Of a stretch of DNA of 61,764 bases, positions 2,232-61,290 are shown piece after piece. Position numbers and translations under genes: made by a program. The notes below the pieces were generated by a model. The model did no database searches. It saw only the letters and a program-made list of their open reading frames with translations, and was not told the DNA's origin. Each line of letters begins with the position of its first letter. Position 1 is the stretch's first letter. This DNA comes from a virus: positions 1 through 61,764 of IMG/VR virus record IMGVR_UViG_3300027162_000003; one strand, given 5' to 3'.

Positions 2232-3689
2232 TTATTTATTGATGGAGCCGCTTGGATTAATCCGAATTAAATCTTTTACAAGAGTTTTTTTTCTTACTTT
2301 CCTCCAAACGCCATCACCAGACTCTGAATCTCGTTCGCCTTTTCCATTCGTATTTCCCTCTAGTGTTTCTATCCAGTGTCCGTTGTCACTGACAACAAAA
2401 CCAACATGAGAGAAGTCAAATGTCACAATATCTCCAAGTTTCGCTCTGTCTTTTTCAGAAAAAATACGAGTAGTATTTGGTCGCTTTTTTGCCCATGCAG
2501 TTAAGCCATAAGCAAGCGCAGTTTTTGGTCGCCAATCTTCGGGAGTTCTGTTTTTCAGATTGAGCCATTTAACAACTTGAGAATCTTCAAGCCACTCCTT
2601 GATGCACCAATCCGTAAAGGCAGCGCAATTCCCAGTAACAAATGGAGTGCCGCTTGAGTCTCTACAAATAATTATTTCACTCGGAACACTTATGCAATAC
2701 AAGTCGATTTCTTCCTCGTTTATTGAAATATGTTCTTTTTTTAGAGTTCTTGTTTTTTTGTTTGAAGTGGTTATTTCGTAACATGGTTTCTTTTTCTCAA
2801 TTTTTCTTGTTCTTAAATTTGGATGCTTCCCACATAAAATAGACATTGCTGCAAAAACATCAGCGTTTTGTTTTCTTGCCGTTGAAATAACTTTTGTTTT
2901 TATAGTTCCATCCCAAAAAACATATCTGTCTATGAAATATTCGGCTTGTTTTGAAGACAAGCTAAACGCCCAATCCCACCTAATTTCTTTGTAGTCAGAA
3001 AAAATAACTTCAAAATAATCTGGAATTTGAAATTCAAATGTTGTCAATGGAGATTTGCTTGAACCATATACTTTTTGGCTTTTGTGTTCTTGTCCTCCAA
3101 ATTTTTTAAGCTCTTGAATTTTTCTTTCTTTGCTTACTTGAATCCTTATTTTTTGATGTTCTCTTTCTTTTCTTGCAAAATATCCGTCAGCTATAAATGC
3201 AGCTATAAAATCTAAATCTAAAAATGAAAATTTTATATTATCATCATTGTTGATTTTAATTGATGGAATCGTAAGTGACGATGTTAGGCTTGATATTGGT
3301 TTAAGTTGTGGCGAATTTTCATATTTTGTAGTGTTCCAATAACCCCAAAATTTATGTCTTGCATCACACTTGAAATTCAATGAACGAGATTTAATTGTTG
3401 CAATGGAAATTTTGTTTTTTGTGTGAATTATTGCAGTGGGATTAACGAAAGAGACGCTTTTTGATTCTGAATCAACTTGAGCAACAATATCATTTTTTTT
3501 GATGTCTGATAATTTTTTCCATCCAGATATTGTTAGCGTTTCAACTGATTCATCAAAACACCAAGGCCAAGCGGCGGGTGCAAGTTCAGTTGCTTTCTGA
3601 TATTCACGGATTTGATCTCCGCGATTATTCCCGCCAATTTCTCTAACGCCAACCTGCGATTCAGCAATGGCAATTAGTTTTTCTAACAT
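2232..3689 (-). CDS. CHAP-type endolysin precursor interrupted by an intein
   Basis: The 485-residue precursor contains an N-extein (1-43), an intein (44-354) and a C-extein (355-485). Joined, the exteins give a 174-residue cell-wall hydrolase of the CHAP/NlpC-P60 amidase type: catalytic Cys in WC-AAF at the splice junction (residue 355), then a GDIVTF strand and the catalytic His at ~428 in FSHVGFV. The enzyme would cleave peptidoglycan after holin opening. It sits directly downstream of holin-like and lipoprotein genes, which supports a lysis role. The intein occupies the bond immediately before the active-site Cys, so the unspliced protein should be inactive. Confidence 0.85.
   Translation of the reverse strand: MLEKLIAIAESQVGVREIGGNNRGDQIREYQKATELAPAAWPWCFDESVETLTISGWKKLSDIKKNDIVAQVDSESKSVSFVNPTAIIHTKNKISIATIKSRSLNFKCDARHKFWGYWNTTKYENSPQLKPISSLTSSLTIPSIKINNDDNIKFSFLDLDFIAAFIADGYFARKEREHQKIRIQVSKERKIQELKKFGGQEHKSQKVYGSSKSPLTTFEFQIPDYFEVIFSDYKEIRWDWAFSLSSKQAEYFIDRYVFWDGTIKTKVISTARKQNADVFAAMSILCGKHPNLRTRKIEKKKPCYEITTSNKKTRTLKKEHISINEEEIDLYCISVPSEIIICRDSSGTPFVTGNCAAFTDWCIKEWLEDSQVVKWLNLKNRTPEDWRPKTALAYGLTAWAKKRPNTTRIFSEKDRAKLGDIVTFDFSHVGFVVSDNGHWIETLEGNTNGKGERDSESGDGVWRKVRKKTLVKDLIRINPSGSINK
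2628..3560 (-). mobile_element. intein with LAGLIDADG homing endonuclease
   Basis: This 311-residue in-frame insertion encodes precursor residues 44-354. It begins with Cys44 (block A, CFDESVETLTISG), has a block B-like CDARHKFW at ~108-115, two LAGLIDADG-type motifs (FIAAFIADGYF at ~161-171 and YFIDRYVFWDG at ~251-261) with their acidic residues, and a block F/G end with SVPSEII then FVTGN before Cys355. The penultimate residue is Gly instead of the usual His, as in some phage inteins. The DNA is AT-richer than the flanking extein codons, consistent with recent lateral acquisition by homing. Confidence 0.9.
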
Positions 3690-3866
3690 TTATTTTTTGT
3701 CTTTGCGGATGATATTGATGAGTCCAACGAGGCTCAATCCAGCCGCAAGAATTCCTTCTTGCATCGAAGGATCAAGTTTTACGCCAAGAGCAGTCGCTAC
3801 CAAAATCAAACCGCGCCATGTGCTATTTTCGCTGAGTCGTTCAAGAATTGTATTTACAATTTTCAT
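3690..3866 (-). CDS. small holin-like membrane protein
   Basis: A 58-residue protein starting MKIVNTILERL. An amphipathic N-terminus is followed by two hydrophobic stretches (~19-29 and ~39-52) separated by a short VKLDPS turn, and a charged RKDKK tail. This is the plan of small phage holins. It ends 1 bp before the endolysin start, so they are translationally linked. Its job would be to permeabilise the inner membrane at lysis time. The assignment rests on size, hydropathy and neighbourhood. Confidence 0.65.
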   Translation of the reverse strand: MKIVNTILERLSENSTWRGLILVATALGVKLDPSMQEGILAAGLSLVGLINIIRKDKK

Positions 3867-3867
3867 A

Positions 3868-4098
3868 TTATTTGTCTTTTATTGTTTTTGAGAAGTGTTC
3901 CCAAGCATACATCACACTTGGGTCTTCTTTTGGTTTATCTTCTTTTTGTTTATCTGGGTCGATGTATGGAATGTAGGATACTGCCAACTTTAATTGAACT
4001 GAACCGAGCTTACCTTGATTCTGTCCTGCTGGTGGTATTGGAATATTGACGCATGAAGTAAGCCCAAAAGCAAGCAGAATAATTACCAGTGATTTCAT
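3868..4098 (-). CDS. small lipoprotein, possible outer spanin
   Basis: A 76-residue protein with a classic lipoprotein signal: a hydrophobic MKSLVIILLAFGLTSC with the acylated Cys at 16, then a Pro-containing segment and a hydrophilic tail. It lies between two small membrane proteins in the lysis cassette. Rz1-like outer spanins are short proline-containing lipoproteins, so an o-spanin role is plausible and would imply a Gram-negative host. No separate i-spanin is obvious unless the 64-residue neighbour serves. Its start overlaps the upstream gene by 4 bp (ATGA). Confidence 0.6.
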   Translation of the reverse strand: MKSLVIILLAFGLTSCVNIPIPPAGQNQGKLGSVQLKLAVSYIPYIDPDKQKEDKPKEDPSVMYAWEHFSKTIKDK

Positions 4099-4289
4099 TT
4101 ATCTTTATATTTTTTAAGTTTTGCAAGCATGACATAGATCGAAACCCATGCGGCAATAATTGCACTAGCTGAAGCTAAAATTCTAAACCAAATGTCAAGT
4201 TCTGGTAACATAGAGACGGCAACTGCAAATACACTATAGATTGTGCCAGCATATCCAGTTCCATGTGAAAATCCACTATCTGAGTTCAT
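4095..4289 (-). CDS. small membrane protein, second holin candidate
   Basis: A 64-residue protein with hydrophobic segments at ~15-28 (IYSVFAVAVSMLP) and ~34-56 (FRILASASAIIAAWVSIYVML) and a Lys-rich C-terminus. The two-TM layout and position at the head of the lysis cassette fit a class II holin or a holin/antiholin partner of the 58-residue protein. It overlaps the lipoprotein gene by ATGA coupling. Which of the two small proteins is the true holin cannot be decided from sequence. Confidence 0.55.
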   Translation of the reverse strand: MNSDSGFSHGTGYAGTIYSVFAVAVSMLPELDIWFRILASASAIIAAWVSIYVMLAKLKKYKDK

Positions 4290-4295
4290 TTTTAA

Positions 4296-5047
4296 TTAAG
4301 GTCTTGAGTTTTTGTAAGGATGTCCTGCGGGAAGATTCCCTTGCAATCCCCATTTCCATGCAAGGTAACCCTCTGTGATTTCTTGGTTAGCGGCATCCGA
4401 GAACGCAATTGTTTCGGCAATGTATCCATCCAAATCTTGCGATTCGATTTCATTGTGTCCTAATGAAATGATTGTGAATGGATTTGTGCCGATATTCCCA
4501 GTATTAGTTTGTGCGCCATTTACCCTCCAAGCTGAAGTCGCGCCATTGAATTTGGGAAGCAGTATATAAGGTTGATCCCGAACGGCAGCACCTCCGCCCA
4601 TTTGTTGATTCACCCCAGTATTTGAGCCACCAATGATTTCCCAAGTATTACCAGAAGTAAATCTTCCTGACAATCTTGTTCCAGCAGTAGTCGATCCTAC
4701 CCTTCCAGCCATGAAGAAATGTTGAGCCGCCGCAGAACTATCAACCTGCAAGACCATTGCAATGTATAGACGGCTTGCTGCTTGGTCGTATGCAAACGCT
4801 GTGTTTTCCAAACAGTTGTTTCCAGTATATTCAAATACATTTAACCCGTTAAGATTTCTGGTTCCTGTATTCGGACCAACTGTCCCAGCAGCCCTTGTCA
4901 GGGTTCTGCTATTTCCAGACTTATCAAGAACTTGAGTAACTTGACTTCCTGTTGCGGTGATCGTTGCTGTATCAGCAGCATCATACCAAAAAATTGTTGG
5001 GATGCTAGCTGGTGTCCAATAAGAGGACGCAAACAGCATTTGATTAA

Positions 5048-5051
<4 letters not shown>
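4296..5051 (-). CDS. LamG/concanavalin-like fibre protein (copy A)
   Basis: A 251-residue protein paralogous to the gene at 6549..7358. Both have the FWYDA(A/T)D opening, a [10 protein letters not shown] motif, an MGGGAA segment and a C-terminal [15 protein letters not shown] followed by HPYKN-like residues. The pattern matches laminin-G-like jelly-roll domains that bind glycans, common in secreted proteins of Planctomycetota/Verrucomicrobiota and their phages. It probably decorates a fibre. It starts within the last codons of the upstream collagen gene (4-bp overlap). This copy is clearly AT-richer than copy B. Confidence 0.7.
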
Positions 5052-6487
<1,436 letters not shown>

Positions 6488-6548: not shown

Positions 6549-7358
6549 TCATGGCGGGAAATTTTTGTATTGATGGACTGCTGGAAGGTTGCCTTGTAGC
6601 CCCCACTTCCACGCGAGATAGCCTTCGACGGATGTGACATCGCTGGGGGCGGTGAACCCGACCATTTCGGCGATAAACCCGTCGAGGGCGAACCCTCCGT
6701 TTTCATTGCCGCCTAGCAAAAGGAGATTGCAGTCATTCGTGCCAACATTGCCCGTATTTGTGACAAGGCCGTTAGTTCGCCACGCTGACGAGTCAGAGTT
6801 GAGTTTCGGAACGACGAGGTAAGGGGTTTCGATGAATGCTGCCCCACCGCCCATCGCGATATTCGCTCCGCCCGCCGAGCCGCCGAGGATTTGGAAAGTG
6901 TTAGCATCTTGCCACCGGCAGGACATTCGCAGCCCAGCGGTGGTGCTTGTTGTTAAAGCCCAGAGGCCATACTGGACCGCACTCACATCAATAAAAAGAA
7001 CCTGCGCGATGTAGAGCGGCGTGGTGGCTTGGGCGTGAGTGAAAGTTGCGTTTTGCAACGAGACGCCAGATTGCCAGTCGAAAACATTTTTCCCGTTGAA
7101 TTGTCGAGTCCCCGTCTTTGGCCCTACCAGACCGCTCTTACGAGTGAGCGTGTAGTTGTTCCCGCTTTTGTCGAGGACTTGAGTGACCTCATTTGTCGCT
7201 GAGTTAAAAGTGATCGTGCTGGCGTCCGTGGCGTCATACCAAAATCGTGTCGTGATGTTCGCAGGAGTCCAATTCGGCCAAACTTTTGTCGTGCCAATGT
7301 AAGCCGCCGCAACAGACGAGTTGCCAATTTTAAGCTGTGATCCGGCGAGGGCTGGCAT
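6549..7358 (-). CDS. LamG/concanavalin-like fibre protein (copy B)
   Basis: A 269-residue paralogue of copy A (4296..5051) with the same [17 protein letters not shown] and [11 protein letters not shown] motifs, plus an extra N-terminal ~25 residues (LKIGNSSVAAAYIGTTKVW) typical of fibre-attached modules. Codons are much GC-richer than in copy A, so the two were probably acquired separately rather than duplicated in place. It is separated by 1 bp from the upstream 108-residue gene. Confidence 0.7.
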   Translation of the reverse strand: MPALAGSQLKIGNSSVAAAYIGTTKVWPNWTPANITTRFWYDATDASTITFNSATNEVTQVLDKSGNNYTLTRKSGLVGPKTGTRQFNGKNVFDWQSGVSLQNATFTHAQATTPLYIAQVLFIDVSAVQYGLWALTTSTTAGLRMSCRWQDANTFQILGGSAGGANIAMGGGAAFIETPYLVVPKLNSDSSAWRTNGLVTNTGNVGTNDCNLLLLGGNENGGFALDGFIAEMVGFTAPSDVTSVEGYLAWKWGLQGNLPAVHQYKNFPP

Positions 7359-21870: not shown

Positions 21871-23727
21871 TTATTCAGAAAAATCAACATATTCCATTTT
21901 CTCGATTCCTTGCAAGGCTTTTGTTCTTGTTGGTAACTCTGGCTTTGCGTCGGTCATAGTCGCAATTGCGCCTCCTCGTTGTCTCAAAAGAAACACAAGC
22001 AAGGAAAGCGAATCCAATGCGTCAGGAGAATGTTGCCGTGTTCGCTTGCAATAATCGCCTTTACTTTCCACTCGAACCAAGCCTTGGCCTTTCTGCTTGT
22101 AGCGTCTCGCAGTAGCTTGGCGCACCAACTCTTCGCTACGGAACCCCGGCGATATTTTCAAATACTCAAACTCCAAATACTTCGCTAGACCGAAAATCAA
22201 TTCGGTAACAACGCCAGAATAAAGTTGTGACGCTGGCAAGGAATCGTCGCCAAGAATGTGAGTATCCGTAGCCATAGTTGAGTAGTTGACTCCAAGCACA
22301 TCTCCCCACACGGACTTCAACGAATCATGGATGCCAGCACCATTACCTGTTCGGTCAACGCATACCCAGTTCGGAGCAATACGCATATTCTTACAGAATT
22401 TGATAATATTTGTGGACTGCTCCAATGTCGCGGCCTTCGGGAATGGAATCTGTGAGTCAAGTTGTAAGACAACCTTGGGCTTCTTATACTCAACAAATCT
22501 ACCACTCATTGGCGTATAGCCGTCAGAAAGCCCAAATCTGCCGTAAGAACAGATTACTTGGTCATTGCCCTCCAAAGCCAAGTCGAACGCACACAGAGGC
22601 ACTACAGGCCCAATAAAGCGGGTAATTCCCATGGCATTGTCCATCATGCTTGGCGTCATGATTGCCATGGACACGCCTTCCTGCGGGAACCAGCCCCTAG
22701 CCATGGTATAATATTCTGCCGTCTTACCCTTGGATTCGTAGGCTTGATAGCCTTCGTGAGTCTGAAGACCGGGGAATACGATCTTTTTCTCAATCACATT
22801 CTCGCACTTTGCGGCATCCAATCGCAAGATATGCCAACCATCTCGACTCTTCCATTCCAAGTCATCCTCGCAGTCAATAGAACCCCAGCCTGCTGTTGGC
22901 TCACAACGCTTGCCAAATTCGCTAGTCCTATCCTTCGGGTTGCTTGCCGCAAATATCTTGATTCGACCCTTCGCTCCTTCCGTATCCGCCGCAGACAGGA
23001 TGTTCTGCAATCCTTCCCAGACACCAGCAGGAACTTCTTCCGCTTCGTCCAGCACAACATGAGTCCTAGACATCCTGCCCCATTTCGGATGCGGCTTACC
23101 ACTTCTTGGGCTAGGGTGGAAACCACGGAGCGTTCCAGTTCCGCTATCACCTTTAGGAACAGCAACAAGATGAATCCCGTTCTTGCTATCGTTATTCGCT
23201 TGGATACTTTTTACAAGTGTCTCACTGCCTTCAAATTCTGGTCTAACCAATGCAGTTGTATAGAACTTCTTAATAGCTGCAAATACATTTCGCTGTGCGT
23301 GTTCGGCAGTCAATGACACAACTTTAATACAAGTATAGTGAGGATCACGCATCCAATCCAACAAAAACCAAGCCGCTGCACCGAATGTTTTTCCCATCGC
23401 GCCAGCACCTTGGATCAGCAATTTATCGTGATCGAACAAACATCTCCATGTGTTTTGACTGGACATTGGTCGCCAATCATAGACTTGTGGCCCCCAGAGA
23501 ATCGTTGCCGCTGCCTCAAACTGATCTGCATCCAGCAAGCTCTGGACATAGTTTTTCACTATTTCCTTCGCTTTTGGTATATCCAATTCGACCTTTCCCT
23601 TCACAGATGCCGCATTTAGAATGATATGCTTTGCCGCATATACAATTCCAACATCTTCATCCCTGTCAGCCTCTTCCCGAATCTCCTCGGCTAACTTAAT
23701 CGTCCTATTTACGCTTCCGCCAATCAT
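21871..23727 (-). CDS. terL: terminase large subunit
   Basis: A 618-residue two-domain packaging motor. ATPase: Walker A GAGAMGKT (107-114) and Walker B VVLDEAE (224-230), with the catalytic Glu following Asp; ASNPKDR (~261-267) fits the coupling motif. The RNase H-like nuclease has acidic residues at D382 (CAFDLALEG), D458 (WVCVDRTGNG) and D569/D572 (SPDALDSLS). It cuts concatemeric DNA and drives it into the prohead. Its start overlaps the 93-residue gene by ATGA. It is distant (4 kb) from the small subunit. Confidence 0.93.
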   Translation of the reverse strand: MIGGSVNRTIKLAEEIREEADRDEDVGIVYAAKHIILNAASVKGKVELDIPKAKEIVKNYVQSLLDADQFEAAATILWGPQVYDWRPMSSQNTWRCLFDHDKLLIQGAGAMGKTFGAAAWFLLDWMRDPHYTCIKVVSLTAEHAQRNVFAAIKKFYTTALVRPEFEGSETLVKSIQANNDSKNGIHLVAVPKGDSGTGTLRGFHPSPRSGKPHPKWGRMSRTHVVLDEAEEVPAGVWEGLQNILSAADTEGAKGRIKIFAASNPKDRTSEFGKRCEPTAGWGSIDCEDDLEWKSRDGWHILRLDAAKCENVIEKKIVFPGLQTHEGYQAYESKGKTAEYYTMARGWFPQEGVSMAIMTPSMMDNAMGITRFIGPVVPLCAFDLALEGNDQVICSYGRFGLSDGYTPMSGRFVEYKKPKVVLQLDSQIPFPKAATLEQSTNIIKFCKNMRIAPNWVCVDRTGNGAGIHDSLKSVWGDVLGVNYSTMATDTHILGDDSLPASQLYSGVVTELIFGLAKYLEFEYLKISPGFRSEELVRQATARRYKQKGQGLVRVESKGDYCKRTRQHSPDALDSLSLLVFLLRQRGGAIATMTDAKPELPTRTKALQGIEKMEYVDFSE

Positions 23728-24571: not shown

Positions 24572-25678
24572 TCATGGATAATTCTTCATTCCTGCATACA
24601 ATCCATTGCCATCAGCATACCAGCCCCTATCCGTATAAACATTCATCACATCTTTGAAGTATTTCTCATACATCGGGGCAACTTTCTCAAGACTAAAATT
24701 CATTCCCCACTTCCTGCAATCCATAGGCTTAATGTCATCAATATTTTTGATCGCATCTACAAAGTCACCCATCGTCCGACACCGAAATCCTGTGATGCCA
24801 TGCAAATTATTCTCTGCAAAGCTACCCCAATCTGTCGTTATCGTTGGCGTTCCACATAGCAAATTCTCAACCTGAACACCACCGAATGGCTCGATATACT
24901 GGCTAGGAACGAAACTTGCCTTGGCGTTAGCCATCAATTTTTTTCTGGTTTCCACATCAGCATATCCAACATATTCCACATGGTCAGGTAACTTATAGCC
25001 TTCTTCTTTCTGCCCTGCGATTACCAACTTCACTCCTGCCTTCTCTGTGGCTTGGATCGCTACATCAACGCCCTTTCCACTGTAAACCCTTCCCAGATAC
25101 AGAAAATAATCTTCCTTCTTAGCGTTAAACTCGAAATCCTCCACATCGAAATAATTCGGGATGACAACATCATACCAGTCCTGTTTGCATGAACCCACTG
25201 CCGACATTCCATAATAGGCATGATAAATTGCGTAGGACTCAAACACCTTCCACCTTGCCCAATGTCCACCCGCATACCCAATCCCCGGCTCCACGCAAAT
25301 CATGTCTTGATGCGCGTCACAGATAGGACGAACGCCTGAACCCCAGAAGGGCAGAATAAAATCATGCTTCTGCTTTCTTTTCCCTACTTCCCTAATCGCG
25401 TTCTTGTAAAATGTCTGATAGGCGTGATCGTTCGTGTTAAACTTAAAGAATGTTTTTCTCCAATCATGCGAGCCGTAGCTTTTCGCAAAATCATCGTTAG
25501 TCAGAACTGGCACATTCTCCGAGCAAATCAAGTCGCTCTCTTCATGCCCATAGTGAATGACCTCATGTCCTCGTTCAACCATCATCTTGCCGAACTTCAC
25601 AACCTTTTGAGTATATGCACAGGCGTTGAACTCTTTTGATGTGACTGTGTGCGGGAGTCCTAAAATGTGAAATCTCAT
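24572..25678 (-). CDS. GT4-type glycosyltransferase
   Basis: A 368-residue GT-B glycosyltransferase. The C-terminal half shows DYFLYLGRVYSGKGVDVAIQ, KLVIAGQ and SQYIEPFGGVQVENLLCGTP followed by ITTDWGSFAE, which is the donor-binding EPFG..E signature of GT4 (Glycos_transf_1). The N-terminal half has an acceptor-side Rossmann pattern. It starts by ATGA overlap with the dCMP deaminase gene. It may glycosylate a virion component or modified DNA base; the presence of a dCMP deaminase and MazG leaves nucleobase modification open, but there is no hydroxymethylase here. Confidence 0.8.
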   Translation of the reverse strand: MRFHILGLPHTVTSKEFNACAYTQKVVKFGKMMVERGHEVIHYGHEESDLICSENVPVLTNDDFAKSYGSHDWRKTFFKFNTNDHAYQTFYKNAIREVGKRKQKHDFILPFWGSGVRPICDAHQDMICVEPGIGYAGGHWARWKVFESYAIYHAYYGMSAVGSCKQDWYDVVIPNYFDVEDFEFNAKKEDYFLYLGRVYSGKGVDVAIQATEKAGVKLVIAGQKEEGYKLPDHVEYVGYADVETRKKLMANAKASFVPSQYIEPFGGVQVENLLCGTPTITTDWGSFAENNLHGITGFRCRTMGDFVDAIKNIDDIKPMDCRKWGMNFSLEKVAPMYEKYFKDVMNVYTDRGWYADGNGLYAGMKNYP

Positions 25679-60636: not shown

Positions 60637-61290
60637 TTAAGCTATAGAAAGTGATACAATTGTTGCTTCTGAAGATAATGGAACCGGTTGAGAGAATGTT
60701 ATAGTCCTTGGAGTTGTTAAACTAATTGTGTAATTTGTAGGATTTTGAAAAATGCCATCAATTGTAACTAAATATGCAATGGAGTTAGTAGAAAGACCTC
60801 CAGTAATTCCAAAAACATCCGTCACCCCATCTCCAATATAAGACCAGATATTGCCAAAATTTGAAGGTGGCAATACCCCAGTTGCACCCGTGGCTCCTGT
60901 TGGCCCTGTTGGGCCTGTTGCTCCACCTGATGGGCCTGTTGCACCAATTAGCCCAGTTGCACCAATTAGCCCAGTTGCACCAATTGGCCCAGTTGCGCCA
61001 ACTGGCCCAGTTGCACCAATAAATGTTCCATTATTTGCAAGACGAATAAAATAGCACATCAACCCCTCATCCGTGAGTCGGGGTTGATTGAAAATCTCTA
61101 CTGTATTATTGGGATCGCAAGGAATATCCCATACTACGCGACCATTTACAATGGATTTATTGATTGTTCCATAAAGCGCATAAACAAGATTATCAATCAA
61201 TGATGGAACTGACTCAGAAGAAATAGATGGATACGGAACTTCTGGGCAGCAAGTGCTGGAATATGTTGAGCTATTGCAATTGCAGGACAT
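60637..61290 (-). CDS. collagen-like tail fibre protein
   Basis: A 217-residue protein. Cys-rich N-terminus ([20 protein letters not shown]), then a segment ([20 protein letters not shown]) found at the start of many phage collagen-like fibres, GATGP/GATGL repeats at ~90-140 and a C-terminal domain ([20 protein letters not shown]) homologous to that of the split collagen gene. Sits between the tailspike and the junction gene. A fibre with a trimerising tip is inferred. Confidence 0.75.

Follow-up and report, generated by a model that had tools for sequence, protein, structure and literature searches.

The window analyzed here is the whole stretch of 61,764 nucleotides of the IMG/VR virus record IMGVR_UViG_3300027162_000003. 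Near one end, it holds a gene in which a CHAP endolysin is interrupted by an intein, preceded in the same reading direction by three small genes, whose products are a membrane protein, a protein with a lipobox, and a hydrophobic protein (Table 1). By sequence, these three genes and the lysin gene look like a lysis cassette, with no PHROG function assigned to any of the three.

Table 1. Coordinates of the interrupted lysin gene, its neighbors in the window, and the site-b inteins of related contigs
Feature	Position	Strand	Basis
Precursor ORF, CHAP endolysin with intein, 485 aa	2232..3689	minus	unbroken reading frame, Pfam CHAP, PHROG
N-extein, residues 1-43, ending ...AAWPW	3561..3689	minus	gap-free alignment to uninterrupted lysins
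Intein "lysin-a", residues 44-354, 311 aa (Cys1 ... VTGN)	2628..3560	minus	tblastn, alignments, AceL NrdHF match, fold search
Cys44, intein residue 1, class 1 nucleophile position	3558..3560	minus	invariant in 4 complete lysin-a inteins
His112, block B (DARH); H69 of the intein	3354..3356	minus	invariant in 10 inteins
LAGLIDADG motif 1, residues 156-169, Asp168 (FIADG)	3183..3224	minus	Asp invariant in 10 inteins; predicted helix 156-168
LAGLIDADG motif 2, residues 246-261, Asp260 (FWDG)	2907..2954	minus	D and G invariant in 10 inteins; predicted helix 246-260
Cys332, block F position 4 cysteine	2694..2696	minus	invariant in 10 inteins
Asn354, C-terminal intein Asn; penultimate residue Gly353, not His	2628..2630	minus	alignments
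Cys355, +1 splicing nucleophile and CHAP catalytic Cys	2625..2627	minus	invariant in 36 lysins; CHAP fold match
C-extein, residues 355-485 and stop (CAAF...)	2232..2627	minus	alignment to uninterrupted lysins
His428, CHAP catalytic His (FSHVG)	2406..2408	minus	invariant in 36 lysins (H117 of A5)
EGN motif, residues 444-446; no intein here, lysin-b insertion point in relatives	2352..2360	minus	lysin alignment
Small hydrophobic protein, holin candidate, just upstream of the lysin gene	3690..3866	minus	sequence; PHROG 8494, no assigned function
Small lipoprotein, lipobox LTSC, Rz1-like by sequence	3868..4098	minus	no PHROG match
Small membrane protein, holin candidate	4095..4289	minus	sequence; no PHROG match
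Site-b intein in contigs L140, L141, L142, and L143	3001-4035/4038
Site-b intein in contig L144	3001-3696

The endolysin and its intein

When the two flanks of the intein (residues 1-43 and 355-485) are joined into a 174-residue protein, a profile search identifies Pfam CHAP at 2e-6; the precursor matches PHROG endolysin families at 4e-10, and an intein-free relative (L007) does so at 9e-14. In an alignment of 36 phage and bacterial-genome lysins, the catalytic Cys (C44 of A5), the FSH His, and the EGN motif are all invariant. In the structural model of the L007 lysin (pLDDT 92.5), the catalytic Cys lies at the start of a helix, resembling papain-like enzymes, and the top PDB matches in a fold search were the LysK CHAP domain, PlyGRCS, and LysIME-EF1, followed by LysGH15. 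The LysK sequence has the corresponding order Cys ... WGHIG ... EQN, and these are its catalytic residues. Taken together, the Cys, His, and EGN, the endolysin homology, and the CHAP fold identify the protein as a CHAP endolysin. The sequence-only reading had placed the catalytic Cys at the start of the C-extein, and this assignment agrees with both the invariance of residue 355 and the CHAP fold match. Cys355, the predicted CHAP nucleophile, is in this arrangement also the putative +1 splicing nucleophile.

The bacterial-genome lysins closest to this family (L227, L228, L231, and L255; 51-57%) come mostly from Verrucomicrobiota assemblies, which may offer a weak hint to the phage host. Elsewhere in the window, collagen-like repeat proteins, probably tail fiber parts, are encoded at 5048-6487 (G-A-T repeats) and 60637-61290 (Pfam Collagen slightly under threshold). 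The genes at 4296-5051 and 6549-7358, beside the collagen-like gene, encode proteins of 251 and 269 residues that resemble each other and apparently represent a duplicated gene, and a glycosyltransferase group 1 gene (24572-25678; Pfam 4e-20) is located near a terminase-like gene (21871-23727).

The core residues of an intein are all present, namely Cys44, the block B His112, the C-terminal Asn354, and the +1 Cys355. Across an alignment of 10 inteins, the block B His, both LAGLIDADG Asp residues, the block F Cys, and the penultimate Gly never vary, with Cys1 and the terminal Asn almost invariant. Points against an intein are DARH in place of the block B TxxH and the absence of both the usual block F histidine and the penultimate His, which is replaced by Gly353. 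However, the Thr of TxxH and the penultimate His are common in inteins rather than obligatory, and the AceL NrdHF intein likewise lacks the block F and penultimate His, yet splices. Cys332 aligns with the F:4 residue that was mutated (C124A) in the AceL NrdHF crystal construct (PMC7891396). This block F Cys and a Thr at G:5 are class 3-like features, whereas the presence of Cys1 and a Phe instead of Trp at B:12 depart from class 3; Cys1 is as expected of class 1, yet Cys332 could possibly start splicing in place of Cys44. With both cysteines present, either class 1 or class 3 chemistry may apply. The two LAGLIDADG motifs, each with a catalytic Asp, point to a putative homing endonuclease. Both had been read as intact from the letters alone, and the invariance of D168 and D260 in the 10 inteins bears this out, the Pfam LAGLIDADG_3 match to this intein being sub-threshold only.

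No intein or Hint model of Pfam and NCBIfam matched the 311 residues at threshold, an outcome that had been named beforehand as evidence against an intein. Although the objection technically applies, it is overruled by intein homology, fold, and empty sites, and the missing match can be regarded as a false negative of the model libraries. With tblastn, inserts in PhoH, ribonucleotide reductase (RNR), DNA polymerase, primase, and ThyX genes showed 21-27% identity over approximately the whole intein, and the match to an insert in a NAMPT gene spanned most of it but not all. Two of the matched phage inserts had been labeled by their depositors as bearing an intein or Hint domain, and related inteins with matching termini occur in genes annotated as RNR, DNA polymerase, and primase. 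PHROG 32482 (PhoH family) matches residues 42-290 of the precursor, i.e., the intein, at 1.9e-10. A profile built from 10 inteins retrieved the solved AceL NrdHF intein from the PDB (E 3e-11); this profile was needed, as a phmmer search of the PDB with the single intein gave nothing significant. For the precursor, the structure prediction is weak (pLDDT 64), and the top PDB matches of the model in a fold search were an endonuclease-bearing intein, AceL NrdHF, and the LysK CHAP domain. A search of the genome collection with the intein alignment yielded zero relatives.

Empty sites, recurrence, and selection

Both the lysin-a site and the EGN site are uninterrupted in 106 of the 108 intein-free viral contigs collected with the joined lysin and the lysin alignment (distinct contigs, duplicates removed), where the scan pattern WPWCAA cannot match site-a inteins and the best 80 of 478 relatives were retained. 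An occurrence of this kind rules out chance. Compared with uninterrupted lysins, the junction WPW/CAAF (slash, insertion point) has neither gained nor lost a residue, and the closest listed intein-free lysin shares 94% nucleotide and 96% amino acid identity with the window exteins (dS ~0.2). The uninterrupted homologs at the same insertion site that the sequence-only reading had proposed to look for are thus found in at least 106 viral contigs, and these exact empty sites, together with intein homology, confirm its claim of a 311-residue intein with boundaries 44-354 inside the endolysin.

The same intein is present at the same residue in no fewer than four further lysin lineages, with amino acid identities of 80% (L059), 60% (L060), and ~50% (L061-L063, three contigs of one phage type with a PG_binding_1-like N-terminus). 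The copy in L115, found with the pattern WPWCFD, is incomplete and cut by the contig end; complete lysin-a inteins are known from only four lineages. A search of viral contigs with the pattern TGNCAAF returned, beyond known members, chance frames only, and these were rejected. In the lysin tree, rebuilt without L117 (spurious long branch) and L062 (long branch), every intein bearer is located in a separate neighborhood otherwise devoid of the intein.

Between the window and L059, dN/dS of the intein is 0.13, with 0.18 for the splicing part and 0.10 for the endonuclease part, so that splicing and endonuclease functions both appear to be under selection. In the same pair, pS is lower in the intein than in the lysin (0.54 vs 0.70; bootstrap fraction 0.0035), in a family where several lysin dS values are saturated; the inteins therefore look younger than the lysins, suggesting that the lysin-a intein may have moved laterally. 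A dip in identity across the 39 nt preceding the insertion was considered as a possible co-conversion tract and discarded, since intein-free alleles vary there too. Intact LAGLIDADG motifs, low dN/dS, and isolated bearers form, at the sequence level, the pattern expected of a homing element.

A second intein at the EGN motif

In L029, a 346-residue intein (Ala1 ... HN/T) directly follows EGN (968-2005), and the same site-b allele is also found in L140, L141/L142, L143, and L144, so that five lineages of this lysin family carry it. It is of the terminase/helicase type and unrelated to lysin-a; its relatives are widespread among terminase and helicase proteins, and in L145 and L146 they occupy the Walker A site GGGK/T. 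Considering that the inteins of L140 and L141 share 95% DNA identity and their lysins 66%, lateral transfer of the site-b intein is clear. The DNA motif GGNAAN/AC is common to the GGGK/T and EGN/T sites, so an ectopic jump between them would be possible, which suggests a route by which an intein might pass from Walker A to EGN. L059, which bears the site-a intein, and L140, which bears the site-b intein, lie next to each other in the lysin tree. As a side observation, LAGLIDADG motif 1 of the L140 site-b intein (3001-4038) reads LLIGKGG, vs LLIGEGG in L029 and LLIGDGG in L141, so this endonuclease may be decaying. As judged from these alignments, the two catalytic motifs of a single enzyme family host two unrelated inteins, which is unusual.

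Interpretation and known systems

The locus is very probably the result of a selfish homing intein that has reached a new host site, the endolysin gene, whose product would have to be spliced to become active. In a tailed phage, a LAGLIDADG homing intein would have inserted itself into this gene precisely where the CHAP catalytic Cys is encoded. The whole precursor would be translated first, and splicing would start when Cys44, or possibly the block F Cys332, attacks the N-terminal junction. The N-extein would be passed onto the Cys355 thiol as a branched thioester, cyclization of Asn354 would release the intein, and an acyl shift would ligate WPW to CAAF and set the Cys355 thiol free as the nucleophile of the peptidoglycan hydrolase. 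Because splicing would free this same thiol, it would be obligatory for activation. With its nucleophile acylated or misplaced and its N-terminal segment displaced, the precursor is expected to lack activity, and from this anatomy we infer that the unspliced lysin is inert. At the DNA level, the endonuclease would cut intein-free lysin alleles at the conserved site, the cut would be repaired from an intein-bearing copy, and the intein would be kept as a selfish element. Lysis time is usually set by holins rather than by endolysin synthesis, and slow splicing at the lysin may therefore be tolerated.

It has long been debated whether active-site inteins are parasites or act as regulators, and the sequence-only reading had leaned toward a timer or safety lock on lysis, possibly sensitive to redox, zinc, or temperature. 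Splicing co-opted in this way, with the intein sensing redox, metal, temperature, or cell state, would be consistent with an insertion that should block the catalytic Cys of the precursor, with the eight cysteines of the precursor (six of them within the intein), with the occurrence of two unrelated inteins at both catalytic motifs of the lysin family, and with the conditional splicing known in other inteins (PMC10663303, PMC5050341). However, 106 intein-free relatives have uninterrupted lysins, the presence of the intein is patchy, and its endonuclease is intact and under selection. Native inteins are generally close to active sites, at a mean of 8.3 Å vs 21.1 Å for other Cys/Ser/Thr (PMC3359363), so the insertion position needs no special reason; at such favored sites, splicing has to be precise and the DNA sequence is conserved. 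Given close relatives without the intein, the timer is not needed, its proposed sensitivities are not supported, and a homing element explains all of these observations. We thus consider a regulatory intein improbable. A post-translational lysis clock, in which both catalytic motifs have been repeatedly and independently invaded because delayed lysin activation benefits the phage, appears just as doubtful.

An ordinary inserted lysin domain or a non-splicing remnant would account for the Hint profiles all falling below threshold and for the non-canonical block B, but this explanation is very unlikely in view of the exact empty sites, the terminal residues common to inteins in conserved replication genes, the dN/dS of ~0.13, and the homology to the AceL NrdHF intein, for which splicing is proven. 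As the contig is metagenomic, an assembly chimera might also be considered, but the single unbroken in-frame ORF and the same arrangement in independent contigs from other samples make it scarcely credible. For a soluble endolysin in which the catalytic nucleophile doubles as the +1 splicing residue, the natural alleles (empty, site a filled, site b filled by an unrelated intein) would permit a simple lysis-time assay of the parasite-versus-regulator question.

Among known systems, AceL NrdHF (PDB 6zgq) is a class 3 split intein that has Ala1, begins splicing at the block F Cys, and splices within minutes (PMC7891396). It shares with the window intein a homologous splicing domain, the block F Cys, and the Thr-Gly-Asn end, but it is split, resides in an RNR gene, and is accompanied by a free-standing GIY-YIG nuclease, whereas the window intein has Cys1, a LAGLIDADG insert, and a lysin host gene. 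The inteins of phage PhoH, RNR, DNA polymerase, NAMPT, primase, and ThyX genes have the termini and both LAGLIDADG Asp residues in common with it; they differ in host gene and carry Cys or Thr at +1 depending on the site. The RNR intein of Corynebacterium phage Darwin (L267, 2501-3487) resembles AceL NrdHF in starting with Ala while retaining the block F Cys, and is a possible class 3 member within the lysin-a intein family.

Mycobacteriophage inteins resemble the window intein in active-center insertion, mobility, and a variable penultimate residue (PMC5050341). The survey of these inteins covers thirteen host protein groups, and the words lysin and lysis are absent from it (PMC5050341). In addition, all 224 of 224 mycobacteriophage endolysins are without introns or inteins (PMC3314691). 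No published endolysin intein was found in the open-licence literature searched, so priority is not proven, but the earlier expectation that inteins are rare in lysis enzymes is in line with these records. Group I introns with homing endonucleases in Kayvirus are likewise homing elements aimed at lysis genes, but unlike the window intein they are removed at the RNA level and involve no protein precursor (PMC6445280). The lysin-a intein can therefore be regarded as an element of a familiar type that occupies a new host site, by which a lysis enzyme joins the known intein hosts.
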